Assembly: GCA_031308135.1 (NCBI GenBank)
Contig: JAHLJT010003656.1
Coordinates: 71,504,984 to 71,568,983, forward strand
Source of the DNA: Acheta domesticus
Taxonomy: Eukaryota > Arthropoda > Insecta > Orthoptera > Gryllidae
Length of the DNA: 64,000 nucleotides
Direction: 5' to 3'
The notes beneath the pieces are model-generated. The model did no database searches. It worked only from the letters and a program-made list of their open reading frames with translations, and had not been told where the DNA came from. Shown here piece by piece: positions 24,188 to 56,900 of this stretch. Each line of letters starts with the position of its first letter. Within the stretch, counting starts at the first letter, position 1. The translations under genes were made by a program, and so were the position numbers.

Positions 24188-24395
24188 ATGCAGCGAGCAC
24201 CGCTCCGCCGAGTGGGCGCCGCCCTGGCGCTGCTCTCCGCCCTCGCCCTCGCCGCCGCCCCCGCCGCCGCCGACGGCCCGCCCGCCAACGGCAGCCGCGT
24301 CACCTTCGGCGAGGAGCGCGCGCCCGGGGAAGGAAGGTCGCTGGGCGAAGGGCTGCCCCTGGGTGAAGGACGCTCGCTCGGAGGGCTCAGAGAAG
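24188..24395 (+). CDS. Osiris gene coding exon 1 (signal peptide)
   Basis: Encodes residues 1-69 plus one base of codon 70, ending AGAGAAG|GTAGGT. The exon probably begins at 24069 after the acceptor tcctcgcag, giving a 119-bp 5' UTR portion. The C-terminal half is an imperfect GEGRSLG repeat (residues about 49-67: GEGRSLGEGLPLGEGRSLGG). Confidence 0.85.
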
Positions 24396-27300: not shown

Positions 27301-30300
27301 TTCACTTGTTTAAAAATCTTTAATTTGTAAATATATTAACAGATATGTAATTTACTGTAAAGATACAAATTCTCTAGTCACAAGCAAAAGAAATGCTCTG
27401 GTTAATTGAGCCCAAGCATTGAATGACGCTGTCGTTTTAGGTTACAAAAGAAGGGCCCTGTGACGTCTGCCATAGTTGCATTGCCTCTTTTGCTGGGGAA
27501 AGGCTCTACGTAGTTCCAACGCATACGCGAAACGGGTCTCATCATCGTGCAAGAAACTACAGCCACTGAATTAAATCGAATAGGAAGCAGACTTTAAAGA
27601 ATACTTTAAATATCAACGATTCCTTTTATTTGTTGATAATAGTTCATTAGGTGAAAACAGCAATTTAAATGCAATTATAATTTTTTTTCAAAAATTTTGC
27701 ATGCTTATATTTGCAATATATTTAATTTAAATTGCTGTTTTCACTTGTCGCAGGATTGTCAAGAAATGAAAAGTATCATTATTTAATATCAGATGACAAT
27801 CAAACTAACAAGAATCAAAGAATGCTCAGTATCGATCCCTGCCTTCCAATACCAACGTTTCTAATCGCCCGCGTCTCCCCGCAGGCAAGAACCTGCTGGA
27901 CTGGATCGGGCTGGGCACGGGCCCCGAGACGGACCCGTACCTGGCGGAGGCGAACGCGGCGTGCCTCACGGGCGACCTGGCCGAGTGCTTCAAGTCGCGC
28001 GCGCTCTCCTCGCTGGACGACTTCTTCGACCGCGACGTCTACCCCATGACGGAGAACGCGCGCGTGGTGCGGCTGCCGCGCGCGCAGCTGCGCTCGCTGC
28101 ACGCCGAGCCCTTCGAGTACTCGGTGGCGCCGCGCGCGGACGAGCCCGAGTGGGACAAGCTGGTCAAGTTCCTGCTGCGCCGAGCCGAGCGCTTCCTCAA
28201 GTCCACGGCGCTCGAGCTGCAGTTCCCCACCGAGGTGACGCAGAGCGGCCGCTACTCGCCGCGCTTCATCGACGAGATCAACACGGAGCTCGACATCCTC
28301 GAGGACAAGACCGCCAGCCCCTTCTGTGAGTACCATGCGTTTACTTTCTATGTTACCTTACGGACACTCCAGTGAGACTCTATATTGCCTTCCGAGTGAG
28401 ACTCTATGTTGCCTTACGGACACTCCAGTGAGACTCTATGTTGCCTTACGGACACTCCGGTGAGACTCTTTGTTGCCTAACGGACACTCCAGTGAGGTTC
28501 TATGTTCCCTTACGGACACTCCAGTGAGACTCTGTTGCCTTACGGATACTCAAGTGAGACTTTCTTTGTTGCCTCACGGACACACTGGTGCCACACTGTT
28601 GCTTTCCGGACACTAGTGAGACTCTCTGTTGCCTTACAGACACTCCAGGGAGACTATGTTGCTTCCCGGACACTCAAGTGAGGCTCTCTCTATGTTGTCT
28701 TATGGACACTCAATCGAGTATGTGAGTTGTTTTTCCGGGCGCGTCAACTGTTATGGTCATTAGTTCAGTGAGATTGATGCATTTTATAACTCGGAAGGTG
28801 CGCTGTTTATCCCTCGATGAAACGTGATACCCGACACCAACCTAAACGTCGGCTTGTGAGCCCCCTCCAAATATCTACCCCAGTGGGGCCTCAGCCGCGA
28901 CAAGTTCTAAGCTTCCGAATGGTCCCTCAACATGTGTAGTAGAGTAGTACGTGTAAATGTATACGTCGATTAAAACATGAAGTCCATTGACACTTCGTCA
29001 GCTGTGACGCTGTCATCCAATCGGAACCTTAAACGTCACTATAGTGACCTCACTAAAATGATGTTCATTCTCCCTATTGGATGTCACCGTCACAGCTGAC
29101 GTCAACAGACTGTATATTTTAATCGAAGTATAAATGTGTGGGTGTAAGATGAAGGACGATAAAGGCAAGCGCGTTCAAGGTTCGTGTCCCGTTTTCTAAG
29201 GGAGTGCTCTCGCATTCACCTGATAATGGAAACTACGTCTAACTAGCGATCAGAGCAGCCAACCACTCGAATTCCCCACCATTCGATCTTTATGCAGCTA
29301 GTGCCGAAAATCCACCACCATCGAGACTGTCGAGCCCAAGGACGTACCTGTCAGGGCCGCTGCAGAAGCAACGGAGACTCTGTCCCAACTCTGCCGGTCC
29401 GAATACTCGCATGGCGCACGCTTAAATTACACTCCGACTTGAAAAAGGCAGAGCAGTTAACCCACATTTCTATCGCATTATTTTCTTTGTTGTGAGGCTT
29501 TTCAAGCTTGATACATTTTCTGACAAACTGTTACATTTTGTTCGAGCACAAGAAATGTGACACACCTCAAAAATCGTATTTTTTGGTAAAGTGAAGAATC
29601 TTTTAAAAGAATATTTTATTTTTCCTAGAAACGTTTTAGAAAGAAGGTTCATTAGAAAGCCGGGATAGCGTATAGTAAAACACTTTGTCTTTGGCTGCTA
29701 ATCAACGCCACTCCGGAAAAAATCTGTTTTGTAATAAAATGACGATTGTTTAAATGTCTCTTCTTATGCACCGGGGCCTGATGGAAAGAATATCATCAAT
29801 TTATTGCAACATTACGTGTATTAATTATTACTTCGCCTAACGCTCTGCCACATGCGTAGTGTTCCGCATGTGACAGAGAAGACAAATTTCAGTGGAAATT
29901 ATTGTGGTCAAAGAGGGTTCTAAAGATTCTCCTGATTTTCTGCTGCTCCATTGATAATAAATTAATCATTATTCATGGCAATTAATAACTTTCAATGACT
30001 CTTCAAATTATAGATGTGTTCTGGTGCAAGGGAAAGCATATAAAGTATAGTAAGCAATCCCTTCATTTTTATGTTGTTGTATTGTCATATACGGATGAAA
30101 TTGAATTTATCACAATTAATTGTCTCATACTTGTCACACGGCTAATTTTAAACTCCTTGAAGACTCTAAAATGACTAATCCACAAAAAGTTACCGTTGAA
30201 GATTCTCGGATGCGATTCTATAAGCAATGAATGCGTCATTTTTCCCGTAATGAAAATCAGTTTGGGGTTTGTTCTCGAGAAAGATAAATTTTAAAATTGG

Positions 30301-33300
30301 GACGTCAGTATTTCGGAACGGCAAAATATTGTATAATGTTACCCGTTAAACATATATGCAAAAACAAATAACAAACTTTCTTTTGTTGGTGGTAGTGGAA
30401 GGATAGCTTATTCATAGTGATGACGTGAATTTCCTTTATGCTGCAACCATATGGTTCGGTCACACTTTAATTACATCATGACTAGAAAAAAGCCAGACAT
30501 TTAGCCTATCATTTCAACGCATCATATTCTTTGTCGTGATACACGCTTCAGGGGTGTTAAAATTTCTGACATACTGTTACACTTATGTTTAGGACTTCAA
30601 CAAGGTATAACTTTATAATTGTATTTTTCATGTTTCACAATGACGTACTCTCACTTCGTTACATTCTTCGTGTTTACTAATGAACATGCTCACTTAACTG
30701 TATAAGAAACAAAATGAAAGTTTCTGATTATACATGAACCATTTGTAAATTATGAGCAGCTAAGTTTCTACAATTTCATTGTTGAAAACAATCAGAAACA
30801 AATTACCGTGTGATTTTCTCGGCATAGGTGTATCGATTTGGTTTCATCATATGTTTTAGTGGCGTGTTGTAGCAAATGATACTGAAGGAAATGTATAATT
30901 TTCGAGCTCTTCCTTGAATATTAATATCAAGTAATTGTTTTCACTTATCATTTTCACTCTTCAAACTTTCATGATGCGGAAATTTCCAGATAAATCACTC
31001 GCTATTCCGTGGTGTATAACATTACTCTCAGTATTACCTTAATTATTATTAAAAACATAAATTTACCACAACGGACAGTAGAACTGCTGATGATAGAAGC
31101 GAGATGAAATATCTCCACATTTAATCACCACGAACATTAGTTTTCCCATGATAATTTGATGCATGCCCAACGTCCGCAGATAGATCAGAAGCTAAATACG
31201 CAAGCGTGACGTCAGTGAATAACGTCTCTCTCCAGAGAAAGAGCCGAGAGAGATTCTTTCGACGCACGTCCTTCCTCACCGCCCTACTTAGCACGGAGAT
31301 CGCCGCTCGCGACCGCACGCGTGCAGTTGTAACGCCGGGTGTATTTCAATAGCAGGAAACGTCCTTAAAGCAATGGCGGTGTCTCATGGCAGGAATGTTC
31401 TCCTCGCTTATTTTCTTCGACCGACTGTAATTACCAAATAAAGTATTTGCTTTGCTGTTGGAGGGGAAATTTACAATTTTTGAATTGATAACTAAGAGGA
31501 AATTTATTTTGATAGAGTTTTTAGCGTATGCGCGCTTAAGCCACGCGCAAACGATCACAATCAATCGAAGTCCCTCTGAGATGGAACTTTGCCTTTCCTC
31601 CTCTCGCGTGTTAATCGTCCATGTATCTCAGCGCTCCTATGGCGAGACGAGGAAACGATTTTTAATTAAACTGTACGGCAGAAGGGGAGAATCTCCTCCC
31701 TTGAACTGACATCTATCGGCTTCTTTTTGAAACGCTGGTAAGCAAGGATCAGATCAGAGGGTCAGACGGGAGCCGAGCAGCAGGTCGATGTAATTTTACT
31801 ATTTGCCTGATGGAATCCACGGAAAAAGAGAACTGTAGATATTTCTCTCTTAACCCATCACAACGTAAGTAATCTGATTTGTTGTATGTTGAATTCGAAG
31901 TTCTTTATGCAATTGGATTCTTTCTTCCTCGTTAGAAACATGCAGGAGCCACCGCTGCCTTAGCGTTATAGAAAATCCTTTTTGTTGATCCCCACAGAAC
32001 AGAGGAAAGGCCGTGTTGAGGTCAAGTATTTGGGGAAGTAGGTGGAAGAAGTAGGGAAGAAGCTTGACTAAATCTCTCTTCAGTAATTGTTTTCACATCT
32101 CGTTTATAAAACAAAATTCGAGACCAAATAAATTTAGTATTGAAAGTATAATCTCTTGATTATAAAATACAATTAAAGTCTTAAATATTTCTTAAAAACT
32201 TCCAAAGATACACAAAAACGGCTAATTAATGTAAAAATATATTTAAGCACGTCCATCTCAAGTAGAAAGACGCCTGAACTAGCATTGTTGATCTATAAAA
32301 TGCTACTTTAATTCCATAATAAGAAATATATTTCGCCGAACATTTACTATATCGACCATGGACTTGAACTCTGGCAAACTTTACAAGTGGAAAAACTGCA
32401 GATTTTGAGCTAAGACATTTTTTATATAACGTTTCATAATAATAGTCATTATTAACAGAATTTCTATGAATCCTGAACGTGAGATTCTTGTATTTCAACC
32501 ACACGCAAAAATCTCAATCACCATTAACTCAAAACTTAATTTTTCGAAGTCTTACAGCATTTAATCTCATGAACATAATAACTACTACATTAAAAATTGA
32601 AATAGACATTTACTTCCTATGGAAAGAACTTAATAAACAAAATTTGTGTACACTAATTACCTTTACCACTGTTTGTTACCCTCATCGATGAGCAATATTC
32701 GTATTTCGAGAAGACCTCGATTGTATAAAACAAAAACTCGGCCTTCCCACATATTCAAGGCGAGAAGTTTCCTTTTTCCACGCGCATTGAAAGCCTGAAT
32801 GCATTTATCAGCGCTACCAATTTTCAAAACGCTATTGTTTCACGCAATAGCGCTGTTGATCCACTCAATAACAGCAGTACAAATGTCAGTGTTCTCTCTC
32901 TTCCACTCTGAATCGGTATCCTTGCGAAACCGAAGCGTGAATAACGACCAAAAAACGGCGCTAACATTTCGAACCTCGTTGTTTCAATGGCATTATCACC
33001 GCATTATACCGCGGAGCGTGACCCTGGCAGCGCGATTTGCCGAAAGCTCTCGAAAGAAGCGGCTCGGTCGACGTTGCGTTTCGGGGGCACAGCGGCGTTC
33101 CGCTAATTTTACAGTTGGCTACTTGCAGCCTGCAACGCCTTGAAGATCCCCACCCATTCAGCGAACTGCAAGTGTTTCTTGTTTACTTTACGTTTCCCGG
33201 CGGCGGAATAAGGTACACCTCGCTATGTGAAAATCCCAGTCCGAACTCGTGGTCCACAACTCCCGAATATTGTCGGATTCTAGCTAGGTGTTCATTCTTT

Positions 33301-35633
33301 GCAAGCAATTGTCAAATATAGATGTTTGTCATTGAGTGTCGTCCTGTTATTGAAGTTAACCGTGGTGAAAAGTTCAATAAATTTATAATTAATAAGTATT
33401 AAAAAATTATTTTGCAAGGCCACAGAAAGTGACGGCCTTGGGTATCGTTCTTATGTGATACACAGTCCGCAGCGCTCTCATGAGCATTAGCAAAAGTAAT
33501 AATTATTTTTTCTCAAATAATGTAGCTTGTTCATTTTGTCAACTCACTCCCTTCAGCATACGTCACGTATTTTCCAGAAGATTTAATCTGAATTGCCGGT
33601 ATCCGCAAAACTGTTATATTTTTCTTATCTTTATTTTATTTATATCATCATAGAATAAATGTGAGATGATTGAGAGCATGTCATGCATGTAAATGGTCAT
33701 GCTTATTACTCTCTTACCCAAATTGAAGGTTATATTTCTCGCATATTTATAACTAATCTTAGGTCTACTCCTCTACTTTCTTCTACTCTGAAATCAAAAA
33801 TTAATCAATGCGAAAAAATAATGTGTTACTCATATTCACTTTAAATACTATGTATCAACTTACTATTAACATCATAAATAATTATTTTAATATATAATGA
33901 AGTTGCTCATTTCTCTCATTTGCATTCTAACAGACTAAAGAATCGAACCGTATTCTGTATGTAGCTACTCAATCAATGTGTGATTTTAGCATTACAATTT
34001 CTGAAAAGCAGTTATGTACACAATTCCGGAATAATACAATGGCAGAAAAGGAACAAATAAGGAAGTGTAAACTGAATGAATCACGCTCTTGAAAGCGCTT
34101 TCAAAGGGTGCCATTGAATGTGTACAGCTGATTTCTGTAAAATGAAATTAGTAGACGAACATACGTAGAACCCTACTCAATTGTTAAAGTCGTCGAATGA
34201 AACTTGATGGAAATACCGTAAGGTAACTGTCGTTTTCGAAGAGTGAGGTAGAAACGAGTTGTACCACAGAACGCTTGTTTAAATTGAGCGCAATATCCTA
34301 TAATACAAAAAATTTGTGTTTGTGTTTCTGTTTCAAGAATTAAAAAATATATACTTTCTATAAAAGATTTAACAACCAGTCAGTTGGGTTAATTTAACTT
34401 TCAGTATATTATGTGAAATATCTTTTGGCTCGTAATAATATTGAGAGAACTTCCTTTTGTAGGATCTAGGAAAACGTATCCCTAAAATTTCTTCCCTATG
34501 TAATCAGACATTTCGAAGAATATTTCAAACGCTAATACCAGTATGACCTACAATTTAATCGATAAGAGGATTCACTAATGTAATGTAATGAACAATTACT
34601 TCACGTTTCCCCTATTAACGTGTTTCGATAGAGTATATCATTCATAGTTACAAACTAATGGTACAGTCAATCTAAACACACGATTAATTTAAAAAAGATA
34701 TTTTCGTAATTTTGATATTGCAAGGGCTAAGATCCAAGTGGAACACCAATCAATTATTGATTAATTGATTGATTAGTGTTAACGGGTGCGTCAACGGCTA
34801 ATGTCATTAGTCCCGCACGTTCAGTGCATGTTTTATCACGAGAGATGGCGGTGATCTTCGCTCGCTGGATGACGAGATCCGGCGAGCGCGGTCCCTGGCC
34901 CATTTGGTTGGGTACTGTTCGGGCAGTCGCCTGGTGGTGTCCGGTAAATCACGGAAAACTACTAATCAGAGCACCCGGCCGATAGAATTCTCATCTAGTC
35001 AGCGACTCAGTACGACCTAGCTCTCTAGATAGTGTCGAAAATCCTACCTTTCTAGGACCTCCCGGTCAGAGGTTCTCCAGTGCCATCAATTGATACCCTA
35101 AGTGTGGACGGGAAAATCGCCCTCATGACCCGTTTGTTAACGTACTGCCTTGGCATTCGCCTAGAATTGATCTGAGTTCTAAGGAATGGACGAATTTTTT
35201 GTACATCCCACTACGTATTTTGGGGAGATTTTTATGAGGAGGAACCGCTTTGACGGCTTGGCTTCTGACAACATATCTGCAGGTCATGTACATTCATTCA
35301 ATTCGTCAATACCTTCGTTCACAAGTAGCTCATTCGTAAATGGTTTCATTTCTTGCAATGCTCTCGTCCTTAATGACGGTCATTTCTTTCCCGACTTGTC
35401 AAACTGGTCCCTTCTTTGAGTAACTCCTCTATATAATTCATCCAACAAGTATAGTGCGATTTTTCTATATCTGTCTCTCAAGCACCTATAGCCACAATGG
35501 AATATCACAAGGCATTTCGCGTCTTTCTCGGTCGTGCCACTAGAAGTCGCATTATCGCAAGCACTGCTTGGTGCGGTCACGATATCTAGCGACACGACTG
35601 AGAAAAACGCGAAATACAGTAACATCATACATG

Positions 35634-35685
<52 letters not shown>

Positions 35686-38600
35686 CTAAACTCCGACCGA
35701 CCGTTGGACCGATCGCCATGAAAGTTGGCACTTCTACGTGTTTTTTTCATCCAGAAGGTTTGTGTGGTGTTAATTCTGTTGTAACTTCACTATATGGCGC
35801 TGTAGAACAAAAGCAGATATTCACGTCAAATGCAACCCGCAACACACTCGGCAGCATTTTTTAAAATATATATCGTTAAATAACTCCTTAACGACGCGTT
35901 TTGGGGCCTAAAAATTTTGAGGCCAAAGGCCTCAAAGAAACGTTCCTCACACCGTAACCTACAGAATGAGCTCTTCTCCAACATTCCATTATATTTTTGC
36001 TGGTCCGGCGTTTCTCGATATTACCTCACCTGCTCAGAGACGTGCAGAATCTGCAAGTAAATGTGAATGAGAGGGACAGAGAGCGACAGAGACAGGCAGA
36101 CAGGGGCAGGGTGAGGTAAGGAAGGAGAGACAGAGAGAAAGAGAGATGGGAGGGGAAAGAGGGAGATGAAGGGCAGAACAACGTCTGCCGGGTTTTCCTA
36201 GTCGCAGTATAAATGGCTAGTCAGAGAAGCGGAGGCGTCGACCGCCCACTCGCGCCGGAAGTGAAGCGCGCGTGTGGCCCGGTTCCGGTGCCGAGAGCGG
36301 CATGCCAGCTGGCGCCGCGCCGCACCCCGCCACGCTGCTCTCTCCCCATGGCGCGGAGGGGCGCGGAGCGCGGGGCGGCGGCGGCGGCGGCGATAGTATA
36401 GCAGCCGCAGGAGCAGGGGCACAGCGGTGACGTCACACAGGTCGCGCTCCTTTCGGCTTCCGTCCGCTTTCGCGCCGCCGCCGCCGTCACCGCCGCCTCC
36501 GCTTCCGCCCTCCCAGCGGCCGCCATCGTCGCTTTTCTCCGAGTAAGATACAGACAGGACGCTACGTGGTAAGATCAAATGCGTGCAGCGGCTGATCCTA
36601 GCTTATACTTCGCTTTTTCTTTCTTGGCGCGTGGGAGTGTGTAATCAAATTGGAATATCTCACGGTATTTCGCGTCGTTCTCGGTTATGGAGCTAGAAGT
36701 CGCATGATCGCCCGCACTGCTCGATACAGTCGCGATCATGCGAGTCCCACCGGCACAACCGAGAACGACGCGAAATACCGTAAGATATTCCATTTTGATG
36801 ACACCCCCCCCACGCGCCAAGAAAGAAAAACTGAAGTATAGGCAAAAAAGACATTCACTTCATAAACGGGACTAATGACCATAGCAATATTAAGTTGGCT
36901 GTCCGGGTGACGCCGCGTCCATGGCAAAGGTGCCGACGTTTCGGTCGCAATTCTGCGACCTTCCTCAGGGCGTAATGCGTTAATGCGTTAATGCGGCATA
37001 ATGCGTTAATGACCATAGCAGTTGACGGACCCGGAGACAGCAGTCAATCGAATCAAAAGCATATACATTTGAACGTAAACTTGTATATTTGAGGGCGTCA
37101 TGGCGTACCTGTCACGCGCTGACACTGCGGTGCCGCTTCGCGTTCTGTTTGTACCCCAAACGTTTGTGCAGAATGTGAATCGGCATTAAACAAATTTTGA
37201 AATTAAACCTTTTAAGATGACGTTCCAAAACCCACGTCAGAAAAGTTAGTGACTGAAGAATCGATGAATTGTCGAATGAAATGATCCCTCTTCACTTTTG
37301 TGTCACAGTCTGAATAAATCCTAACAATACTCCTGGGAAACTTCTCTTTACCAATTTTCTTAATTTGAATATTTCAGCGAGTGAGAAACGTAAATTGCGC
37401 ACTCAAACAATAAATTGTTGTTTGTTTTTTGTTTGTAATTTCAAATCCCGTTTCTCTGTCCAGTAATGAAATCACTGGCCAGTACTCATGTCGGTCATCA
37501 TACTGAGGACATCTCATACGCCTCCAAGTGAACTCGTATTTGTTGTCTTTGCGGCGTTTTTTAGCCAACCCAGGTCCATTCCTCCTCACACCCGTGGTTT
37601 GCTTATTCTTCCCATTGTTTATCACTCTTCTTAATCCTCATTTCCAACTTTCTTCTCTACTGAATTGTCGTGTTTGTACCCGAACTCGCTACAAGCAACG
37701 ACACTCCACGTAAACGTTTCTTGTGAGTTCGGATCCGCCGTACATTAGTATTTTCAGTTCGCGATCATGTTGTGTAAACAAAAGGAATTATATTCTTCTC
37801 TAAGCATTATTCATCTTTTATCCAACATTTTAGTTGATAGTTGGCGATTGACAACCGAGAATGAAAATCAAGGGAACCTGATGAGAAACAATGGATAATC
37901 CATAGATAGAGGGTTATAACAAGCCAAACAAGCGTCAGTGGTTTTTTTTTATTTTACAAATAACTTTATTGCCTTAGTGAGATTATATCGTTCATTTCAG
38001 ATGTTAGTTGGAAAAGACATGGGGAATAATGTTTTAAAATTACGAGTAACTAAATTTTTCGATGGCCATTGAATTTACAGAATATTTAATGCCTTTATCA
38101 TACAATGATTTGTTATTGCCATATCGCTTAAATATAATCATTTCTTATCCCTTACTCTCTCGATACCCAGTTGAGTAATTTAAGGTTTTTTATTTAATCC
38201 TTAAGTGAAATTGAAATTGTTTTAGTCGTTTTGTAAAGTAAAAGGGGATCCTGCAAAGCAACTCTCAATAAATTGTAATTGGTCCAGTAGTTTTTGATTT
38301 CCATGTTCCCGTTTCTTCAACACGTTGTGTACACAACCATTGTTTTTGAAGAAAATTATTCACTATTATTGGTATTTATTCACGATAACAATTACGAAGT
38401 GATAGTATTAAATAATGTAACTGAAAACGAAAGTGCAAAGTGGTCACCATCATTCAGTTAAAAGCAAGTCTTAAGACTCTGGTTTGCCTGAAACTACTGT
38501 TTGTGAACAACAATGAAAACTTGGTAATCAAGGAACAAAACGCTTGTCTGGTACCTACAACTTTCTATTTTCTTTCCTGGGGTTTCGAAAGATAAAAAAC

Positions 38601-44600: not shown

Positions 44601-45663
44601 TAAAAAAATATTTTTTTGTAAATATATGGCACGTCTCCTACATAATTGTCAAGATAAGTTCATTTTCATAAAAAATATTGTTAATGATTAGTAAGCTCTG
44701 CAACCCCAATCGACGATATCTCGCTTGACTCTCTCGACTATTGCAAGAGACCAGCAAAACGTCTTGACTTTCTCTAATATTTATTTTCATATCAGTGGCT
44801 CAGCAGAGTTCCACTCACCCAAAGACGTCGCTGCAATTCACTCCTCAAATTCCTGAAAAGTTTCTCTAGTAATAACCACCAATTTCAATTTAAATAATGG
44901 TATATTTCAGAATCATCCAGAACACATCAGTTTCATTATCGGCAATGTTCGCCTCGAATTATTGGGATTTTAAATTTAACACCTTGATCTAATGGTAATC
45001 AACTTATTTAAATCTTCCTCGACCTATCACCAACCTACTTAACTGGATAGGCTGCGTCAACACTAGTTTTTTTAATACTTTTTCATTATTAGTCAAAATA
45101 CTTATTACTATTTACTATTACTATATATTACTATTTATATTACTATTACTATACTTATTACTATTTATATTTTTTCACCATTTCTCTTGTAACAAAATCA
45201 TGATTATAGGAACCTATTCTACGCCTATCATGTCCTCACATTTTGGACATTTCACATGAACGTAAATTACTTAGAAGGTCGTTACGAAAAAAAAATACAA
45301 AAAATGACAATTTACAAGAGACTTTGAAATTTTAAAACAGAGGATATATTCCTCTGTCCCAAAACCGCACATGGCCCTGAACCACATATTAAACTTCGGG
45401 CGCTCCAGTTCTTCATCCTTTGTTGTTACGGACAATAGCAAGTGTTAGTTCGGCGGCGCGATGACCAACCTCCTTTCCACAGCGGCGGGGGCGGTGGCTA
45501 CTACGGCTCCCACTACGCCCGCGACGCCGACGCGGCCGCCAGCGGCGCCACCGGCAGCAGCGGCGGCGGCGGAGGGGGCGTGGCCTTCAGAGACGACGCG
45601 GCGGGCGGCGACGCCTACGACGCCCACCGGCTGGCCTACAGCGGCTACCACGACGCGCAGTAA
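24188..45663 (+). CDS. Osiris-family (DUF1676) protein, 4 coding exons, 369 aa
   Basis: Osiris proteins are insect-specific secretory/endosomal proteins expressed during cuticle formation; this is family knowledge, not seen here. Exons 24188-24395, 27885-28325, 42983-43262 and 45483-45663 join in frame through consensus GT-AG introns (phases 1, 1, 2) into 369 codons plus stop TAA. Residues 1-28 are a signal peptide (MQRAPLRR then an L/A-rich core ending AAAD). The DUF1676-type region runs from about residue 71 (NLLDW), with the paired cysteines C96 and C104 (ACLTGDLAEC), to about 273, including the L/V/F-rich hydrophobic segment 224-273 with a basic lead RKKLKR. The tail holds Tyr/Gly-rich sequence and the family-type AHRLAY motif (AQxLAY-like) at the C-terminus. 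Start chosen because it directly precedes the signal peptide. Introns are 3.5, 14.7 and 2.2 kb. A tandem array starts at the exon 2 donor. Which Osiris orthologue it is cannot be told by eye. Confidence 0.9.
24432..24530. repeat. 52-bp tandem duplication 36 bp after Osiris exon 1 donor
   Basis: 'ccaatatgaagtatagaaaa' plus 'gttactctaagaagggaccagtt' starts at 24432 and is repeated from 24484 with few changes. It lies just inside the intron and does not contain the donor itself. Confidence 0.85.
24540..27640. other. Osiris coding intron 1
   Basis: AT-rich intron. It holds a family D repeat (about 24915-25065, starting 'actgtccgggtggcgccatg') and a hairpin (27651-27744). No internal gene seen. 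Confidence 0.5.
24915..25065. repeat. dispersed repeat family D, diverged copy
   Basis: Begins 'tgtccgggtggcgccatgtc', like 36895 ('tgtccgggtgacgccgcgtc'), and contains an inner inverted pair around 'cgtcttctttgagtcttgaagaagac'. Related in design to the fold-back at 45748-45974. Confidence 0.5.
27651..27744. repeat. perfect 20-bp inverted repeat, 54-nt loop
   Basis: GTGAAAACAGCAATTTAAAT at 27651-27670 is the exact reverse complement of 27725-27744. It lies 140 bp upstream of the Osiris exon 2 acceptor and could form an intronic hairpin. It is probably a small fold-back element. Confidence 0.9.
27885..28325 (+). CDS. Osiris gene coding exon 2 (core of DUF1676)
   Basis: Acceptor tctccccgcag at 27884, donor CTTCT|GTGAGT at 28325/28326. 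Encodes residues 70-216 including NLLDW, the two-cysteine motif and SLDDFFDRDVY. The exon is strikingly GC-rich (third positions mostly G or C) against an AT-rich intron, which makes it stand out and accounts for shadow ORFs on the other strand. Confidence 0.9.
28326..28720. repeat. 32-bp minisatellite beginning exactly at the Osiris exon 2 splice donor
   Basis: Twelve units start at 28326, 28372, 28396, 28428, 28460, 28492, 28524, 28554, 28588, 28616, 28648 and 28679; four consecutive spacings are exactly 32 bp. The typical unit is GTGAGACTCTATGTTGCCTT followed by ACGGACACTCCA. The first unit is the authentic donor (GTGAGTACC...), so most units carry a donor-like A|GTGAG. Using a later unit would change frame or read into TGA at 28372-28375. 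Confidence 0.92.
28735..29355 (-). mobile_element. SINE-like repeat family B copy (minus), interrupted
   Basis: Starts 'cgggcgcgtcaactgttatg', includes 'tctaccccagtggggcctca' and 'tcccgttttctaagggagtg', and ends near 'agtgccgaaaatccacca'. A fold-back element (28968-29130) is inserted in the middle, so family B insertion came first. Confidence 0.75.
28968..29130. repeat. fold-back (MITE-like) element inserted in a family B copy
   Basis: Left arm 'cgattaaaacatgaagtcca' ... 'cgtcagctgtgacgctgtca' ... 'tccaatcgg' (about 28977-29033) pairs with the right arm 'ctattggatgtcaccgtcacagctgacgtcaacag' ... 'tattttaatcg' (about 29076-29126). The centre, cactatagtg, is itself palindromic. GTATA-like flanks may be the target duplication. 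Confidence 0.75.
29360..34765. other. Osiris coding intron 2, left part; no gene seen
   Basis: Mostly AT-rich with only short ORFs. A perfect CRE palindrome (TGACGTCA, 31207-31214) sits in a locally GC-richer patch (31195-31330). Confidence 0.45.
34770..35180 (-). mobile_element. SINE-like repeat family B copy (minus, near full length)
   Basis: Starts 'acgggtgcgtcaacggctaa', includes 'ggcggtgatcttcgctcgct', 'tggttgggtactgttcgggc', 'cacggaaaactactaatcag', 'gccgatagaattctcatcta', and the tRNA-like head in reverse ('aggacctcccggtcagaggt'). Confidence 0.85.
35430..35635. repeat. fold-back element, diverged copy of the 36600-36845 family
   Basis: Shares 'cacaatggaatatcacaagg', 'catttcgcgtctttctcggt', 'gccactagaagtcgcat' with the element at 36600-36845, and its halves are inverted around the 'gcaagcactgcttg' centre (about 35561). 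Confidence 0.7.
35636..35684. repeat. (TA)n microsatellite
   Basis: Uninterrupted AT alternation of about 45 bp between a fold-back element and repeat family A copy 3. Confidence 0.95.
35685..36205 (-). repeat. dispersed repeat family A, copy 3 (minus)
   Basis: Reads, in reverse, the same blocks as copies 1 and 2: 'aagttggcacttctacgtgt', 'tatatggcgctgtagaac', 'aacgttcctcacaccgtaac', 'gctggtccggcgtttctcga', then a purine tract and 'acaacgtctgccgggttttc' at about 36178-36198. Confidence 0.7.
36215..36545. promoter_or_regulatory. GC-rich island with a consensus CRE
   Basis: About 330 bp of CpG-rich DNA in the middle of the long Osiris intron, with a (GGC)n run at about 36376-36391, a perfect TGACGTCA at 36428-36435 and 'tataaatgg' at 36209. 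A CRE inside a CpG island is typical of bidirectional or housekeeping promoters. Alternatively it is a GC-rich passenger between repeats. Local ORFs on both strands look like base-composition artefacts. Confidence 0.4.
36600..36845. mobile_element. fold-back (MITE-like) element, about 240 bp
   Basis: The left arm (36602-36700: 'gcttatacttcgctttttct', 'ttcttggcgcgtggga', 'ggaatatctcacggtatttc', 'gcgtcgttctcggtt') is the inverted complement of the right arm (36745-36842: 'aaccgagaacgacgcgaaat', 'accgtaagatattcc', 'acgcgccaagaaagaaaaac', 'gaagtatagg'). The centre is around 'gcgatcatgcgag'. A second diverged copy lies at 35430-35635. Confidence 0.85.
36890..37020. repeat. dispersed repeat family D fragment with hairpin
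   Basis: 'ggctgtccgggtgacgccgc', 'gacgtttcggtcgcaattct' and 'gcgaccttcctcagggcgta' match the plan of 45748-45832. 'gtcgcaattctgcgac' is a perfect small palindrome. 'gcgttaatgcg' direct repeats and 'aatgaccatagca' (also at 36876) follow. Confidence 0.6.
37030..38870. other. Osiris coding intron 2, middle; no gene seen
   Basis: AT-rich, short ORFs only. Confidence 0.45.
38880..39075. other. GC-rich patch with GGC and CCG runs
   Basis: 'gaggcggcggcggcggcgga' at about 38910 and CCGCCGCCGTCGCC at about 39010. ORFs on both strands are compositional. Confidence 0.35.
39105..39425 (+). mobile_element. SINE-like repeat family B copy (plus, head missing)
   Basis: Contains 'aggtcgattcagtcgctgtc', 'tgatcgatagttttccgtga', 'caccaggcgaatgccggggt', 'agtaccctaacaaagagttc' and the end 'tgatgtgcccggaatcacta'. 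Confidence 0.8.
39430..41605. other. Osiris coding intron 2, right part; no gene seen
   Basis: Very AT-rich sequence with no supported gene. Confidence 0.45.
41612..42238 (-). CDS. hypothetical single-exon Lys/Ser-rich basic protein, 208 aa, nested in Osiris intron
   Basis: An intact 208-codon ORF opposite in strand to, and inside, coding intron 2 of the Osiris gene. It has about 46 lysines (roughly 22%) and many serines, arranged as repeated KSK/SKS and KKKK clusters, with no signal peptide, no membrane segment and few hydrophobic residues. A less basic middle (residues about 60-95, including LRLIYEGLKNLRLQLN) could be helical, and the C-terminus reads TSFIRDFLLMQLKKKHK. A 627-bp ORF in a very AT-rich intron, with a clean start, is unlikely by chance. 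Upstream, on its strand, TTTATATGACGTTA (about 42330-42343) offers a TATA-like box joined to a CRE half site. I do not recognise a family. DNA- or RNA-binding (for example a chromatin or spermatid basic protein) is only a guess from composition. It could be a retrogene. Confidence 0.6.
   Translation of the reverse strand: MEGSKSRTSIATSKSCKSEKPIKLKEKKKPQKRNASVHKTRSKSKNARKLHVCSLEQIRNFVPLKTASTTSAPNAVPSSDSLRLIYEGLKNLRLQLNDETSKSKSKISLPKKVSRRLLPCKSKVSQNKVAASKSRRGLHKKKKRKGTKAKNRKAKTEKKEGKNLAENQSSSEKNPALLCDCLPKKDFKKRMTSFIRDFLLMQLKKKHK
42320..42345 (-). promoter_or_regulatory. candidate TATA box with CRE half site for the nested ORF
   Basis: On the minus strand, TTTATATGACGTTACCG ends about 95 bp before the ATG at 42238. 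The TATA-like and TGACGT motifs overlap, an arrangement compatible with CREB/CREM-type control. Motif-level inference only. Confidence 0.35.
42983..43262 (+). CDS. Osiris gene coding exon 3 (hydrophobic segment)
   Basis: Acceptor atcgtgttgcag at 42982, donor GGCAG|GTAAGC at 43262/43263. Encodes residues 217-309: basic RKKLKRLF, the roughly 50-residue L/V/F-rich segment characteristic of Osiris proteins, then a Tyr/Ser/His-rich tail (YGSFGHSSYYHKPP). Confidence 0.9.
43270..45480. other. Osiris coding intron 3; no gene seen
   Basis: AT-rich intron. A short ATTACTATTTA tandem patch lies near 45105-45170. Confidence 0.5.
45483..45663 (+). CDS. Osiris gene terminal coding exon 4
   Basis: Acceptor ctcctttccacag at 45482; phase-2 junction AG|C gives Ser310. 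Encodes a Gly/Ala/Asp-rich linker and the C-terminal AYDAHRLAYSGYHDAQ, ending TAA at 45661-45663. The HRLAY motif corresponds to the conserved AQxLAY of Osiris C-termini. Confidence 0.85.
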
Positions 45664-45747
45664 GCGCCCCGACGAACTTCGTGGGTCCCGAATGTCTCAA
45701 CAAACATTTTCATTCGACCATGTGAAAAAGTATTGAAACTTCTGTGG

Positions 45748-45974
45748 TCCAGGCTACCCGGGATGAGCCGCGTCGTCGATTTGGTGGCTGACGTTTCGGC
45801 CAACATATTGTGGCCTTCCTCAGAGCGTACTGCCGTACACAGAACTTACAGAACCTACTGCCGCCTACAGAACGTACTGCAGCAGTACGCTCCGATGAAG
45901 GCCACAATATGTTGGCCGAAACGTCAGCCACCAAATCGACTACGCGGCTCATCCCGGATAGCCTGGACCACATG
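45748..45974. mobile_element. fold-back element (family D) in Osiris 3' flank
   Basis: 'gtggtccaggctacccggga' at 45748 is inverted at 45954-45974 ('cccggatagcctggaccac'). The inner arms 'tttggtggctgacgtttcgg' / 'ccgaaacgtcagccaccaaa' and 'ccaacatattgtggccttc' / 'gaaggccacaatatgttgg' also pair. The centre contains short 'cagaac(t/g)tac' direct repeats. It starts 85 bp after the Osiris stop codon, so it probably lies in the 3' UTR and would give the mRNA a long hairpin. Confidence 0.9.
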
Positions 45975-46009
45975 AATTCCGGCCGAGGAAGCCTACGCAA
46001 TCATATTGA

Positions 46010-47765: not shown

Positions 47766-47768
47766 CTT

Positions 47769-47938
47769 TCATTTGGCACGAGGAGTTATGCCCAACCAAA
47801 AGCCACCTTCCACGGAGGCATTGAAATCCCTCTTTGCGAATTTGATGACCTTTGGCGTCTTTTCAGTGCAAACGAAGCTGAAGTGATGCAAGATGTGGGC
47901 CAGGGCAATCTTGGTCTCCATGAGTGCAAATCGCGAAC
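47769..47938 (-). CDS. P450 exon 7 (C-terminus)
   Basis: Acceptor ttacttccag (47939-47948). Completes Gly480 and encodes SRFALMETKIALAHILHHFS through the C-terminal GFWLGITPRAK and TGA (47769-47771). Confidence 0.9.
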
Positions 47939-50900
47939 CTGGAAGTAATACAGAGCTCAATTAAACATTTTTAGTTTACTTTTTTATAAATGTCTCGCTT
48001 GAAAACAGAGTACTACTTCAATTTTAACATTTAGCAATGTTTCACACCAATAACAGGCTGCCTGTGACATTGAGATGATAGTACGAATTGATGTAGTCAA
48101 CATCTATTTAAACACGTGTAGAGTAGGAATAACATTCTCAAAATATGAAAAGTAGCATCTGTAAAATGTTCAAAACAATTAAGCTTGGTATTAATAATTT
48201 TGCTAAAATATTTTTCACAATCCTGAGTTACAAAATGTTCCTCTGGCAATAAGGTGATTCATTGGTTTCTTTAATACCCCGACAAATGGATAGAACTAAT
48301 CCCAAATGGGTTGGCTATCGTATTATCTATAAAAAACATACCTAGCCAGTAAAAATATCTAGTTGCATGTCTAGCAAAAGCTGATCTATTTAACGACTCA
48401 TTTCATTCGAATTAGATATTTTCTATCTTTCTGAGTACTGCAGTTCAGTTCGCGCCTTCCGCTGATATCTGCTTCCTCACAGTATTGCCAGTCTTGAGAT
48501 CATCAGAAATGTGTATGGGGAAAAGAATTCATTCCATTGAAGTAGGAAGATGTTGAGAAAAGGAATTTCTGAACTATTTTTAAGAAATTGTCCTCGCATT
48601 CGTCTGAAATTAATCCGAAAGAGCCAAGAAACAACCGATTAAACCACCTATTTATGTAATAGCCATCCAGACAAGCCCAATTACTTGGGTGAAGGATCGA
48701 TGCCAGTTCCCGATCTATGAAATGTGTTGTGAATTCACAATCAAATGCTATTGCAATCGATAATTAAGAAAATAGATGAATGTCAAATTTCTTAATTATC
48801 CAGAGATCTCGGGATAACAAGGACGCGAATGGGACATAGCGCAGGTTTTTAGATGTCAAGATTTCCCCACAATTTTATTCCATAAGCAAAATTATATAGT
48901 ATAACTAGGTATATTGATATCAAGATATCAGAGTGCCGTATCCTCTCTCCTTTAAAATCACGCTCGAAACTATGGTTTTCTCAACTTTTCAAATTTTGCT
49001 TTAACAGTGTGTACGTTCCCTTAACGTTACGACTGTACAACACAAGATAGAAATGATTTTTTTTAATTCTTGCAATGTTATTTAATCGGAATGACGGTGT
49101 TGTGGTCCCAAAAATAACATTTTCAGAACTTGCAGATGCCAATTCGTGATATTTAATGGGAACATGTATGTGTAAGCATTGTTTTATCTCCACTCCTATT
49201 TATTTTCAAAGGTATTGCAATGACAAATGCCACTAAAACGTAGTTTCTTAAGAAAGCAATAGATTTTGCGGACAAAGTCTGTGAAGTAAAAGTATTTAAT
49301 TGGCCATGTAATGAGAAAATGTAAGACCTTATTCAAAATCATTTAAAACTGCAAGTCTGCATCATTTCTGCGCCCTTATTTCTCATCTAAAGAACAACGT
49401 TCTACATCGTGTCGATGTAGACCTCGGATATGTCTCGGATATGTGAACTCGGATATGTCTTACCTATACAAAGACGAGGACCCACTCCGAATGGCATGTA
49501 CGTAAACGGCTTAATGTTGGCCTTGTTCTCTTCGCTGAAGCGTTCAGGATCGAATAGATTTGGATTGCTCCAATACTTGGGATCTCGATGCAAGGCAGAG
49601 ACAGCAAACCACACGATGTCCTCCTTCTTAATGGTGTATGACGGCAGATTTCCTTGTGCTTCAATAGTGTAGTCTGCCACGCACTTTCTATTTAAAAATG
49701 CCACAGGGGGGTAGAGTCGTAGCACTTCTGCAAAATGACAATGATGCACATTAGATCGTTATAATACTCATATTAATCATGTAACCTGGTTTCAGAATGA
49801 GTGTATAAATAATATAAGCACAGGTATGATTTTAAATTTATAATTTTAATACAAAATTTCAGCTGTAGTAATTGACAGGCGTTACCTGGCCAAGCGAAGT
49901 CTGTACCCGGGATTTCTACATTCAAAATAGAATGATGATTCGGCATTTCGTAACAATTTGCATTTGAAACAAAAAAGTGTACTAATATCAATGACTAAGC
50001 ATTTTCTAAATTATTAATCTAATATTCATGGCAACAACATTACTTGCATTCCTAATAAATGTGTAAGAATGACTGGCAAAACCTTTACCATAAATTATCA
50101 AGTTATATAAAGCTAATTACAAGCATTCAAAATGAAGTCATTGTCCCTTCAGCAAGAAAAAAATGGCCTTTGTACGACCTTGTGTTTATGTAACAGTGTC
50201 GTGTATTTTGCGAGCATCTCACTTCTTGAACATTATTTTTAAGTTATAAAGTAATAAAAAGATGTGAAAATAATGCAAAATAATAGAATTATCACTTTAG
50301 CGAAGTACTTAGTATCTTGCATCGTTTCGTATCTGAACACCATGTGAAACACCATGTCGTGGTACTTGAGGTCCTGCACCTTCTCGTAGGTGAACTTACC
50401 GTTGAGCACCATGTCGTGGTACTTGAGGTCCTGCACCGTCTCGTAGGTGAACTTACCGTTGAGCACCATGTCGAGGTACTTGAGGTCCTGCACCGTCTCG
50501 TAGGTGAACTTACCATTGAGCACCATGTCGAGGTACTTGAGGTCCTACACCGTCTCGTAGGTGAACTTACCGTTGAATACCATGTCGTGGTACTTGAGGT
50601 CCTGCACCGTCTCGTAGGTGATCTTACCGTTGAGCACCATGTCGAGGTACTTGAGGTCCTGCACCGTCTCGTAGGTGAACTTACCGTTGAGCACCATGTC
50701 GAGGTACTTGAGGTCCTGCACCGTCTCGTAGGTGAGCTTACCGTTGAGCACCATGTCGAGGTACTTGAGGTCCTGCACCGTCTCGTAGGTGAACTTACCG
50801 TTGAGCACCATGTCGAGGTACTTGAGGTCCTGCACCGTCTCGTAGGTGAACTTACCGTTGAGCACCATGTCGAGGTACTTGAGGTCCTGCACCGTCTCGT

Positions 50901-53900
50901 AGGTGAACTTACCATTGAGCACCATGTCGAGGTACTTGAGGTCCTGCACCGTCTCGTAGGTGAGCTGGCCGCCAGAGCGCTCCACGGCGGCGTCCACCTC
51001 CCGCTGCAGGCGCTGCTGCACGCCCGCCTGCCGCGCCAGCTCCAGCGCCGAGAAGCACATGAGCGTGGACACGGTGTCGAAGCCCGCGAAGAAGAAGATA
51101 ACCGCCTGGGCCGTGATGTCAGTGTCCGTCAGCTCTGCAACGCCATCAGCACGCGCCCTTGCCTTATGTGTCAGAAGTGCCAGTTGTTTTTTTTTACTTT
51201 CTCGCTACGGAGTAGAGAGACAGTTATGTAATGCGCGAAAAAACGGTGAATTTTCAGCAGAAAATCTCTTATTACAGGGACCAGGTAACGAAAAAGTGGA
51301 TAAATCCAGTTGTTAAATTTAGGGAGGGGGTAATCCTCTAACACGCGATGGTAGCCAGAATCCATGTTTTGTGGATCCTTGATACAGAAAAATCGAATGA
51401 CCGTCTGTGAACATCGCTAGCGGCTAAACCGTTCGACCAATTTTCTCCGTATTGAAAGCCTTAAAGGGCGAGGCTTTGTGCACTTTATAAATCGTACGTA
51501 AGTCAACCTGCGTTGAAGGAAATTCAGGTTAGACTGGAAAAAACAAGTTATTTAGGCCGAAGCGATTACATCCACAAAATTCGAACAAGGAAACAAAATT
51601 CAGATCTTGGGAAATTCTCATTTTGTAACAGAACAATTAGACATTGGAGCAGTTTACCCCCAGCAATTTTGAAGACCTTTCCTCTAACTGCACTAATTTT
51701 TGAATTAAGTTAGAACAAGCTGAGAGTTATATATGTTACAAGAGTAACTAACTGTTCTGAAGTGTGGTGAAGTGCTGTGAAGTGCTAGTTAGTGTAATTC
51801 AATGCAAAATAGTGTAGTGCAGTGAAGTGTAGTGAACGTGATAAATGCCTTTTTTCAATCCAATTTAGCCAATATCTATGTAGTTCGCACTGATTTTAAT
51901 TATCACTAACATAATTGTTGTATATCATAGTAGAGTTGAAATAATTGTTATAACACTTAATATTAGAGATAGTATGATTATTGCATTGTTTTGTATTGTA
52001 TTCTTTTATTATCTTATTATTATTATTATTATTATTATTGTAATTATAGTTAATCAACTGCCACCGGATCACACCCAATTGCAGTTCAAATAAATGTATG
52101 TATGTATGTAATCTCCCCCCGCCCCCGACCAATGGGCTCCCTGGTTGGCGGCGCTGACTTACGCAGCTTGCGGGCGCCCTTGACCACCTCCTCCTCGTCG
52201 CCCGCCTCGGCCTTGAGCTGGCCCGCGCGCGCTTGGATGAGCAGCTGCAGCATGTCGGGCCGGAAGATGCCCTGCTTCTGGCGCGTGCGGATCGTCTCGT
52301 GCACGCTGTTGTGGAAGAAGTCGCGCACCTTCGGGGAGATGAACGGCAGGTTGAGTATCTGGAAGCGATAAAACGAGGCATGTGGGATCAAGAGAGAAGG
52401 TTCCAAAAAGGAAGTCGACTGTTGTTCTGATATTCCCAGGCCTACATAACTTTCGAATATCTGGAAGCGTTAAAACGAGGCATGTGGGATCAAGAGAGAA
52501 GGTTCCAAAAAGGAAGTCGACTGTTGTTCTGATATTCCCAGGCCTATACAACTTTCGAATATCTGGAAGCGGTAAAACGAGGCATAGTAGATCAAGAGAG
52601 AAGGTTCCAAAAAGGAAGTCGACTGTTGTTCTGATATTCCCAAGCCTATACAACTTTCGAATATCTGGAAGCGGTAAAACGAGGCATAGTAGATCAAGAG
52701 AGAAGGTTCCAAAAAGGAAGTCGACTGTTGTTCTGATATTTCCAGGCCTACATTACTTTTGAATATCTGAAAGCGATAAAACGAGGCATAGTGGATCAAG
52801 AGAGAAGGTTCCAAAAAGGAAGTCGACTGTTGTTCTGATATTCCCAGGCCTATATATAGGCTATAAAATAAATAGGTAATCAGTTACAATGCTTCTTTTT
52901 GCCGTGTAATAATGTTTTGTTGCTTTTTTAGTCTCTCGAAGACAATTTAACAATGTTTAGAATATCTAACACCCACTGAGATAGCTCGGCAGTTCAGCGT
53001 CGTTTTTACTGGATCATTGAATGGGAAAACCTTCCGTTTGAGTCTCGATAGTGGCGGATTTTCGACATTAGCTACATAACTTGTTCGAATTCAATTACAG
53101 TGTGAAGGAGAATTCTAGTGGTCAGCTGTTCTGATCGGTAGTTTTCCGTGGTTTTGCCGATCAATACCAGGCGAATGCCAGAGCTGTACCCTAACAAACG
53201 AAACAAAGACGGCGCACAATCATTTCTTCCTCATCCATAACCTCCTTTCCAAACAAATCCCATGCAAACACATTTAAATGGACTGCAGACACATCGGGAG
53301 TCCAGTCGAGAGATTAGAGATTGGTCTGATTGGTGCTATGACTCACTAGGACAGATACTTAGAAGTGTCCCGCAAACCGACGTACAGGTTGGAGCCGAAT
53401 ATCACGTTTCACCACCACCTCCCAGAATGCAGCACGCACTACACTTAGGAAACTAATTACCTCACTTGTTGACGCGCCCAGAATTAATACTCTGACACTT
53501 CTAATGAAGTATTTTTGAAACAACCAATAAAATTTGCTGCTGGAATTCGTGACGGTAAAACTTATTTCGCGTCAGGTATTCTAGGGATTTTTTTCTTAAT
53601 AGAAACATTGGTAATTCGACATCTACATCAGTTATTACTCGACCAAGGGAAGAAAGAGGGATGCGACTGCGGTGCGTCGTGGAACTAACAGTGTAAACAC
53701 TGGAGTGTACAGTCAGTTTCGCTTACAAAAGTCTCCAGGAGCGTGAAGCGAGTTCAGAGACTGCTTCTACGGAATCACCATGGCCATCTTCATAGAGATT
53801 GTGAATCACCTGATAAAATATGACTTCAGAGACACATTATTGAAGATGTGCACTGACTGTTTTATTTTTGTCCTATTAAGTTGCTTTTTTTACTTTTCAC

Positions 53901-56900
53901 CGTTCTAGTACAAGAATGTAATAAAAAGTTATACATATAATTTTTAATACTTTTTCATTGAATTTAAACATTTTGTATTTTTCTTCATTCATCTTTTTTT
54001 TCACAGGCGATTAGTTAGATATGCAATAAAGTACCAAAACATTAACTTTACAGTCGTAAGTATCTGCAATATTCTTCATTATGGTGTTAGTTACTTCGTT
54101 CATAAAAAGGAATTTTATTTGGTATATATTCTGAGAAACTCCTTAAGTTAAAATAAACGATTTATATGAATGTTACTGTTCATCGAAAGAATTAGTTTCA
54201 AAAATTTTAATCGTTTTTCAGAGAAAAGTATACTTTTATTTCTTTCAATATGAGGTGCAGACATGTCCAAATACAGTGAAAATATTAATTGTGAAGATAC
54301 TAGATTTGCAACGAAATAAATCGCATTTTTTTCGCAATAGTTTGGCACGGCCATTTTAATTTTGAATTGAGTATCCTTATATCTCCGTCTCTGTCATTTC
54401 GACTGTAAACACAGACGGTGGCGCGCACCTGTAAACATCATTCTCAACTTAGTCGAGATATATTTACGAGTTACCAACAACCGCTCTCCAATATACGCCA
54501 ACTCACATCCATGAGCTTGGGGCTGAGGAGGTAACCCAGGAAGAGCACAACTCACCTCCATGAGCTTGGGGCTAAGGAGGTAGCCCAGGAAGAGCAGCGT
54601 GCGCACGCCCTTGGTGTTGGTGAGGTCGCGCCCCATCACGTAGAAGGCGTTCCGGCGGTCGCGCAGGGAGTCACACTGGATGCCGAAGGCGGTCGTGGCG
54701 ATCACGTCGTTGGTGAACCGCGTGAAGAAGTCCTTCATGTCGGCCTCGTACACTTTCACTGCCAACAGACGGGCATCGGCAGATTGAGAGGCGAGCCATG
54801 GTCCCATCCAAAAGACCTATAGTTTGCGTTTATTTGGCAAAATTGTTTTAAATGTTTATTTATGTTAGAATTATATAATTATTTAAAAAATAAGATTGTA
54901 TAGAATCATATAAACGCTACAAAAATAATATTCAATACTATAACAAATGTTTATTATTTAACAAAAATCTATGATGGCCCACTCCAAAATGATCAGCAGG
55001 ATCCGCCCCTGCAGACGGAGCATATCACACAAACCCGATTTTTCTCAAAGATATTTTCAGCCCTTCTCAGTTACCCTATTCATAGAAATAATAGGTTTTA
55101 GCAAGTGCTAAAAATACAAAATGTTTCCATACGCTGAAAAAATTAACAATTGTACTGACGGTCGGGGCAGGTTTTCAATCTGCGATAAAATGCGAAATCA
55201 CACACAAAGTGCAAAATAGTGTGAATCGCGAAAAAATTGCGAAATAATTGCTTAACTGCATTTTATGGATTCCTTCGTGTTTTCTCTTTAACAAGAGATG
55301 CGATATCAATAACAATACATCGATCTTTGAAAACATTTAATATGAGAGTATCCGTGTTTATTAATTTATAATTAATATTTAACTGACCAGACAAGGTAAA
55401 AAAATAATAAAAACAATATAAAGAAACTGATCCTGAAAGTCTCAGTGCTCAGGGTCGTCTCAAGGGGTCTTAGCTTTCTTCTGATCGCTGCACGGAGGAG
55501 GCCATACGCCTACGGTGCACTCTTTACTTCTTACGCTTTTATATGTGCTGAAGTTCACAAATGGCGAAGTATTAAATTAGTTTCCTTTATTTCCTGATTT
55601 TAATGGAAAAATCTAAAACGCATCAAAATAATTTTTTACCTCAAAGAGTTCTTCCTTAATAATAATTTTCTCAACAAATACTACAAAATGCTAAATTTTA
55701 ACTTTTATAATGCCATAAATTGGTGTAGTATTGTTTCCAAAATGCGATTTTAAAAAATTTTAAGTGCTAAATTCTATCATCACTACCTATTTATCCCTAC
55801 GGGGTGGATCTCGATGTATGCACTGCACACTCGCGTATTTTCCAGCTCTTCATATATGGAATAATCAGAACCATACGCCTGCGGGGGGGTAAGTGAATTT
55901 CTGGTTTCTCTTTTCCTTTGAACCTTTTTATACTCATATGACATAGTTTATTAGCAACGTGATAAATAAAACACTACATGGATAATTAAATTAAACTCTA
56001 TTTACTATTTAATATGTACAATTGAGATTATATTAAAGTATTTGTACGTCTGCCAGATGGTTTGGAGAGTCTATTCATCAAATGTCGCATAACAATTTAC
56101 AAATTGGCAACTAAAAAATGAGAGGTTGAACATATTTAAAGAAATAAAATGTTATATTACTTAAAGCTACGATGCCCCTCTCAAAATTTCCAGGGCGGCA
56201 CTGCCCGACTGGCTCCCGCTATGAGCATACGCTATGATATATACGAACATACAAACATACAAACTAGGGATAGACGAGATCGCTAAAGCGGCACCGCGTT
56301 GGCAATATCGGGCGAATTGGCTGCAGGTTTGAATCCCACCGGGGCATGGACGTTTACTCTTACATTGTAGTGTGGTGACCACTGCCACCCTCGCATGTCT
56401 ATTCTAAGGTCATTCTACTTCCTGGCCTGTACGGGTGCCGCAGGAAAATAGAGTTTGTGACATGTTCGCATTGCAACTGGACAGAGTTATTCCTTGCATG
56501 GAACACAGTGAGTTATATCTGCCGGTGCCGTCAGTTCGCGGTTACTACAGTCGTCCTGACCTAGCTGGCACAATTCATTTGCTGCCTTATGACCCCCTAA
56601 ACCGCTTCCATCGCACCTAGCCGATAACAGCCCGCGGACTTCGCTTGCAAGGAACAAGAACCCACTCAATACAAAGGCTGCATCAGGTGGGAGAAATGAA
56701 ATGGGAGAATGTGGATGGTATCATAGTATCCGCTATTGAAGGTCGAGGCGACGCCAGTCGGAGTGGAGAGCTTAGGAACCGCCCACCTAAGCAGTGGTTT
56801 AAGATACCTCTTAAACCATTACTTAGGTGGGCGGTTACCACTAGGCACATATTAAACTGGATTACGCTAGGAACAAACACCCTCTCCGTCCGCCCTGTGG

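Follow-up and report, generated by a model that had tools for sequence, protein, structure and literature searches.

Within a 64,000-nucleotide stretch of the house cricket (Acheta domesticus) genome (contig JAHLJT010003656.1, positions 71504984-71568983, part of a 2.33 Gb assembly; hereafter the window), three splice sites of a cytochrome P450 gene lie inside tandem arrays whose units contain the splice signal itself. We consider it likely that these arrays arose, in a genome rich in repeats, through ordinary tandem duplication of short units, a process that is commoner in DNA rich in guanine and cytosine (GC), and that they were then filtered by splicing. A comparison with other P450 loci of the same genome suggests that splice sites tolerate such duplications but are not targets of them; in the sample tested, the arrays do not stand up as evidence of a mutation mechanism directed at boundaries. 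The new part is an asymmetry between donors and acceptors, which is suggestive and comes from a single gene family with a small number of independent events.

The gene in question (CYP9e2-like) is modeled on the reverse strand at 47770..60998 with seven exons and 535 codons. Exons 1-4 lie at 60584-60998, 60365-60502, 54556-54758, and 52163-52358, and exons 5-7 at 50913-51134, 49464-49727, and 47770-47938, with two stop-codon bases included in exon 7. The 535-codon frame is open, every junction is GT/AG, and the product matches Pfam PF00067 (E 2.4e-92). The closest protein, P0001 of Gryllus longicercus (535 aa), is 95% identical over 100% of the length and joins the same residues without an insertion at any junction; therefore, judged by its sequence, the window P450 looks intact and conserved. 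Gene model P0003 of G. bimaculatus also resembles the window P450 closely, minus two stretches.

The original prediction had placed the exon 3 donor, the exon 4 acceptor, and the exon 5 donor of this gene inside tandem arrays, and this was confirmed with Tandem Repeats Finder (TRF) together with the gene models. At exon 5, a 57 bp x 10.8 array (96%; 50350-50963, reverse strand) covers the donor (last exon base 50913), and its unit is composed of the final 52 bases of the exon and 5 intron bases (GTAAG). Unit 1 is the real exon end, units 2-10 match that end at 93-98%, unit 11 matches at 91%, and unit 12, at the far end, has decayed (0.72 over 36 bases), while GTAAG is kept in nine downstream units. 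At exon 4, a 102 bp x 4.9 array (95%; 52356-52856, reverse strand) covers the acceptor (first exon base 52358) and ends at the exon, each unit consisting of the acceptor, its pyrimidine-rich stretch, and about 6-8 of the first exon bases. The exon 3 donor (last exon base 54556) is covered by a 49 bp x 2.0 duplication (93%; 54499-54596, reverse strand), with the final 41 exon bases and 8 intron bases as its unit. A short 3 x 11 bp repeat (ACATATCCGAG; 49423..49458, reverse strand) that had been reported near the exon 6 donor also exists, just inside intron 6, where it begins at base 6.

Minisatellites, or variable-number tandem repeats, consist of short head-to-tail units, and the arrays described here, with head-to-tail units of ~10-100 bp that include variants, match this description. 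They share with minisatellites the short variant units, the decayed far end, and the intronic location, but differ in that coding exon ends and a presumably used donor or acceptor form part of the cricket units. The earlier view that they are not one dispersed repeat also stands, as the unit sequences differ among the arrays of the window, and the two arrays searched against the genome (the 57 bp array and that of the Osiris gene described below) had no other genomic copy of the kind that a dispersed repeat or transposable element would have. In this DNA search, where very common words were skipped, the 57 bp array gave 15 matches, 14 of which were to the exon part only, and no further copy of the exon 5 array repeat was found; the Osiris array returned its own locus plus a single match of 35 bases that lies beyond the array.

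To compare the window with other loci, we drew on 53 P450 loci from this genome (L002-L055 minus L007, which overlaps L034), some of which may be parts of one gene. A Pfam scan supplied 40 of them (103 matches, from which 82 places were chosen; 20 stretches were taken at a length of 10 kb and another 20 at 1.6 kb), and a DNA search with the window exon 5 region supplied the remainder. Exon boundaries were set by aligning the window P450 to each locus with a purpose-written splice-aware aligner, yielding 101 donors and 111 acceptors at conserved boundaries, or 212 splice sites in all, 14 of which were set by the best motif near the end of the alignment. The results therefore apply to one genome and essentially one gene family (P450, plus six Osiris donors) with homology-based gene models. 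The window was excluded from the TRF counts at the other P450 loci because it had prompted the question.

Splice sites of the P450 loci are poorer in TRF arrays than introns are. One of the 212 sites was inside an array (TRF period of at least 9, score of at least 50), compared with 5.4% of the intronic positions (n = 182,240; binomial P = 0.0002), and the proposed enrichment of arrays within 20 bp of splice sites did not hold at these loci (2/212 versus 6.5% of intronic positions; within 40 bp, 4/212 versus 7.5%). In the window itself, TRF arrays cover 5.0% of the sequence and contain 3 of its 18 splice sites (P = 0.06 under random placement, or P = 0.03 if the Osiris donor is counted as a fourth site), and the window P450, with 3 of 12 sites in arrays, stands apart from the 1/212 at the other loci (Fisher P = 0.0005). 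The window P450 is an outlier that was reported for being one, and no special mechanism is needed to account for it.

TRF alone is misleading here, because it overlooked many decayed exon-tail copies that came to light when each exon was compared with its own locus by blastn (168 exons, each 100 nt or longer, including 11 of the window). An exon tail with its donor was found copied in the downstream intron after exon 5 in L009, L010, and L013, after exon 4 in L031, and after exon 6 in L021, L023, L035, L032, and L066, and also in L033; the boundaries in L031 (exon 4) and L033 are outside the conserved set, and these copies were not counted. By sight, L009/L010/L013 and L021/L023/L035 resemble inherited families, and the independent events are therefore fewer than the loci. 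Identity to the exon drops with distance in three of five arrays (window exon 5, L023, and L021; Spearman -0.75, -0.69, and -0.96, respectively). Four doubtful aligner-placed exons were dropped from the 50 exon-overlapping matches, namely, L021 1844-1971 (in a satellite), L025 776-888, L032 2320-2434, and L033 1761-2031, and the match of the L021 last-exon end was likewise set aside. Separately, L015 carries a near-identical 15 bp x 32 array (L015:1742-2217) that begins 17 bp past a P450 exon 5 donor and holds no exon sequence.

Local duplication was then profiled in 50-base segments, with a copy sought within 1.2 kb. A copy was present for 7 of 97 donors, 0 of 108 acceptors, and 64 of 944 random intron segments. 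Segments wholly inside exons had no local copy (0/383, or 0/399 with the inclusion of 16 that extend beyond short exons). In the intron segments flanking the splice sites, the counts on the donor side were 6/92, 4/90, 3/90, 8/97, 6/93, and 6/81, and those on the acceptor side were 2/99, 2/92, 3/91, 2/98, 4/92, and 3/91. Donors did not differ from the intron background (Fisher P = 0.83; bootstrap over 21 genomic clusters, -4.4 to +4.8 points), while acceptors were below it (P = 0.001; -12.1 to -2.7 points over the same clusters). When matched at a GC content of at least 0.55, the counts were 6/25 for donors, 0/37 for acceptors, and 12/92 for introns, with P = 0.003 for donors versus acceptors and P = 0.02 for acceptors versus introns. 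In this sample, neither the donor rate nor the scarcity of splice sites in TRF arrays supports a duplication mechanism targeted to exon-intron boundaries, as the original prediction had suggested. The other proposal, that duplications escape purging when a functional copy of the splice site is kept, fits donors, whose tail copies recur in several P450 loci, but not for acceptors; given the absence of acceptor copies elsewhere, the exon 4 acceptor array of the window is an exception.

Local copies occur throughout introns and are commoner in GC-rich DNA, a tendency that donors with GC-rich tails share. The proportion of random intron segments with a copy rose with GC content (18/403, 20/286, 14/163, and 12/92). 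When 19 exon 6 donors were added and only the downstream side was searched, 8 of 120 donors had a copy (a 20th, from L058, was left out, as its exon end was unrecognisable). Reversed-sequence controls at the same score gave matches for 0/101 donors, 0/109 acceptors, and 1/330 intron segments. The donor tails with copies were GC-rich (8 matches, mean 0.63 versus 0.50, P = 0.0006), one of the eight being at 0.45; by GC class, copies followed 5 of 16 tails at 0.65 or above and 0 of 34 below 0.45.

These observations are probably accounted for as follows. The arrays would be ordinary minisatellites, born by short tandem duplication with units of tens to ~100 bp in the large, repeat-rich cricket genome. 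Duplications in exon interiors, where no copies were observed, would be removed by selection on the reading frame. A duplication that straddles a donor would leave the original exon and donor intact and place a spare tail and donor farther down the intron, and such copies are indeed found at about the intronic rate. In contrast, one that straddles an acceptor would leave the real acceptor preceded by a spare on its upstream side and would probably be selected against, and we infer from 108 sites that acceptor duplications are purged. Donors may be tolerated and acceptors not because the duplicated donor lies downstream of the intact copy and the duplicated acceptor upstream, so that transcription order would favour the intact copy for donors only. 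Once formed, an array would grow and decay within the intron, with its exon-side edge held in place by selection on the exon, as the older-looking far ends suggest.

The window P450, an apparently working gene with ten near-identical donors and five acceptors in different introns, amounts to a natural competition experiment. If general across genes, the donor/acceptor difference would measure the tolerance of each type of site to duplication and would explain exon fragments building up at the 5' ends of introns. A bolder version, which we put forward tentatively and regard as doubtful, treats the duplicates in this genome as a natural mutagenesis screen in which a downstream spare donor is invisible to selection and an upstream spare acceptor is lethal to the allele because the first-transcribed splice site wins. 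If this were true and general, an in vivo choice rule for duplicated splice sites would be readable from genome sequence alone, and introns would grow from their 5' ends via accretion of exon tails.

Several points weigh against neutral duplication filtered by splicing. The window P450 itself holds an acceptor array, which is the class supposed to be purged. In vitro, the intron-proximal of duplicated donors reportedly wins, and donor arrays would therefore be harmful. The GC-matched donor rate is nominally above that of introns (6/25 versus 12/92, P = 0.21), and a one-sided search gave 1/31 for GC-rich intron versus 7/47 for donors; therefore, there may be a modest donor-side excess at high GC. 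The seven donor matches fall in 3 clusters, some apparently inherited, and resampling of clusters consequently leaves a marginal difference between donors and acceptors (0 to 13.5 points; donors not above acceptors in 3.9% of draws). Likewise, the eight matches with GC-rich donor tails come from 4 contigs, and without L002-L015, the loci found by DNA search, the counts become 4/76 for donors, 0/88 for acceptors, and 63/802 for the background. Finally, no significant decay with distance was detected in the arrays of L035 and L010.

A rival explanation is a mechanism tied to exon ends, such as R-loops or slippage at AGGT-like donors, that favours duplication at splice donors. Several P450 clusters have tail copies downstream of donors, and these occur after different exons (3 in the window, 4, 5, and 6), some units hold only ~5-10 intron bases, and the most GC-rich donor tails have copies in 5 of 16 cases, compared with 1 of 31 GC-rich intron segments in the one-sided search. 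Nevertheless, donors as a whole are duplicated at the rate of random intron and of the next 400 intron bases, the GC-matched difference is not significant, and the introns of these loci are array-rich in general, which makes such a mechanism unlikely. An alternative that concerns the window gene only is relaxed constraint, under which the gene would have accumulated splice-site duplications that working genes purge. Its status as an outlier and its acceptor array fit this explanation, but the intact frame, the GT/AG junctions, and the 95% identity to a full-length G. longicercus protein render it rather improbable.

The arrays could also be functional, with the extra sites yielding regulated protein variants or serving as decoys that slow splicing. 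Both 57 and 102 are divisible by three, so that each exon 5 unit would add 19 residues and each exon 4 unit 34, the frame stays open whichever of extra exon 5 donors 1-6 is used and likewise with the first extra exon 4 acceptor, and GTAAG is retained along the 57 bp array. However, splicing at the second exon 3 donor, within the 49 bp repeat, would change the frame, extra exon 5 donors from number seven onward bring in an in-frame stop, and the second to fourth extra acceptors do not leave the frame open. Moreover, GT has been lost in several of the L035 copies (by sight), the G. longicercus protein, which was compared at the protein level only, has no insert, and an insertion at exon 5 would adjoin what we take to be the ExxR motif. 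We therefore find a functional role very unlikely. Least probable of all is an assembly artefact in which the repeats come from collapsed or stuttered reads: although the assembly of short repeats is error-prone, the units carry point differences, the arrays decay along their length, and like arrays are present in other P450 loci.

The preferred reading, neutral duplication filtered by splicing, can be set beside two published ideas. In the tandem genomic duplication model of intron creation, as presented in PMC3443670, duplication of an exonic segment with AGGT gives rise to a new intron bounded by the two AGGT; Gao and Lynch 2009 and Hellsten et al 2011 are among the references of that paper. 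The cricket arrays resemble this model in that the duplicated segment contains splice-site sequence, but the model places a new intron within an exon, whereas the cricket arrays straddle existing introns and none has been gained. The arrays sit at boundaries common to paralogues (alignment positions 252, 317, and 391), and the sister-species protein joins the same residues; the model, which had been mentioned as a related idea, is inapplicable because the introns were there before the arrays. Another parallel is the competition of duplicated 5' splice sites (Eperon et al 1993, as cited in PMC8724738), where equal donors compete on one transcript. Those were test pre-mRNAs, whereas the cricket case is natural and has ten donors in one intron. 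A multi-term search of the open-access literature returned no paper on arrays at splice sites, which is not proof of absence.

The second gene of the window, an Osiris (DUF1676) gene on the forward strand (24188..45663; PF07898, E 1.1e-31), has exons at 24188-24395, 27885-28325, 42983-43262, and 45483-45663. The end of exon 2 (28325) and the stop (45663) were fixed via the reading frame, and, as in the P450 model, the frame is open and the junctions are GT/AG. From the exon 2 donor runs a diverged array, mainly of 32 bp units (28326..28720, forward strand), identified from TRF and from a count of GTGAG, which opens most units and occurs 10 times in the first 395 bases of intron 2 (0.4 expected). 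The claim that this donor is inside an array holds only in part: a repeat does start at the donor, but the TRF call (28347-28687, 32 bp x 9.3, 77%) starts 21 bases after the junction (28325|28326). No exon sequence was found inside the intron 2 array. A 2 x 52 bp repeat said to lie near the exon 1 donor was found as well, as two copies ~52 bp apart that begin ~37 bp into intron 1 (24432..24535, forward strand, ends approximate). A 38-base interior match between exon 1 and a stretch 2.4 kb upstream was set aside from the list of exon copies.

At other Osiris loci, the six recognisable donors (of seven loci) had no exon-tail copy, with scores of 6-8 compared with 5-8 for the reversed control, the pieces spanning only 22-40 exon bases. 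One Osiris paralogue, L077, has an old duplication with copies ~84 bp apart near the start of the intron that follows exon 2 (within its first 260 bases, reverse strand), without exon sequence. A C-rich 14 bp x 33 array (CTCTCTCCCACCCC) lies at 23074-23519, ~0.7 kb upstream of the Osiris start codon.

Elsewhere in the window, the open frames at 341-751 and 2780-3424 presumably represent remnants of a piggyBac-type transposase and of a non-LTR (long terminal repeat) reverse transcriptase, respectively. A near-perfect inverted repeat (CCGCCCACCTAAG...CTTAGGTGGGCGG), spotted on reading the sequence, lies at 56780-56855 (ends approximate).

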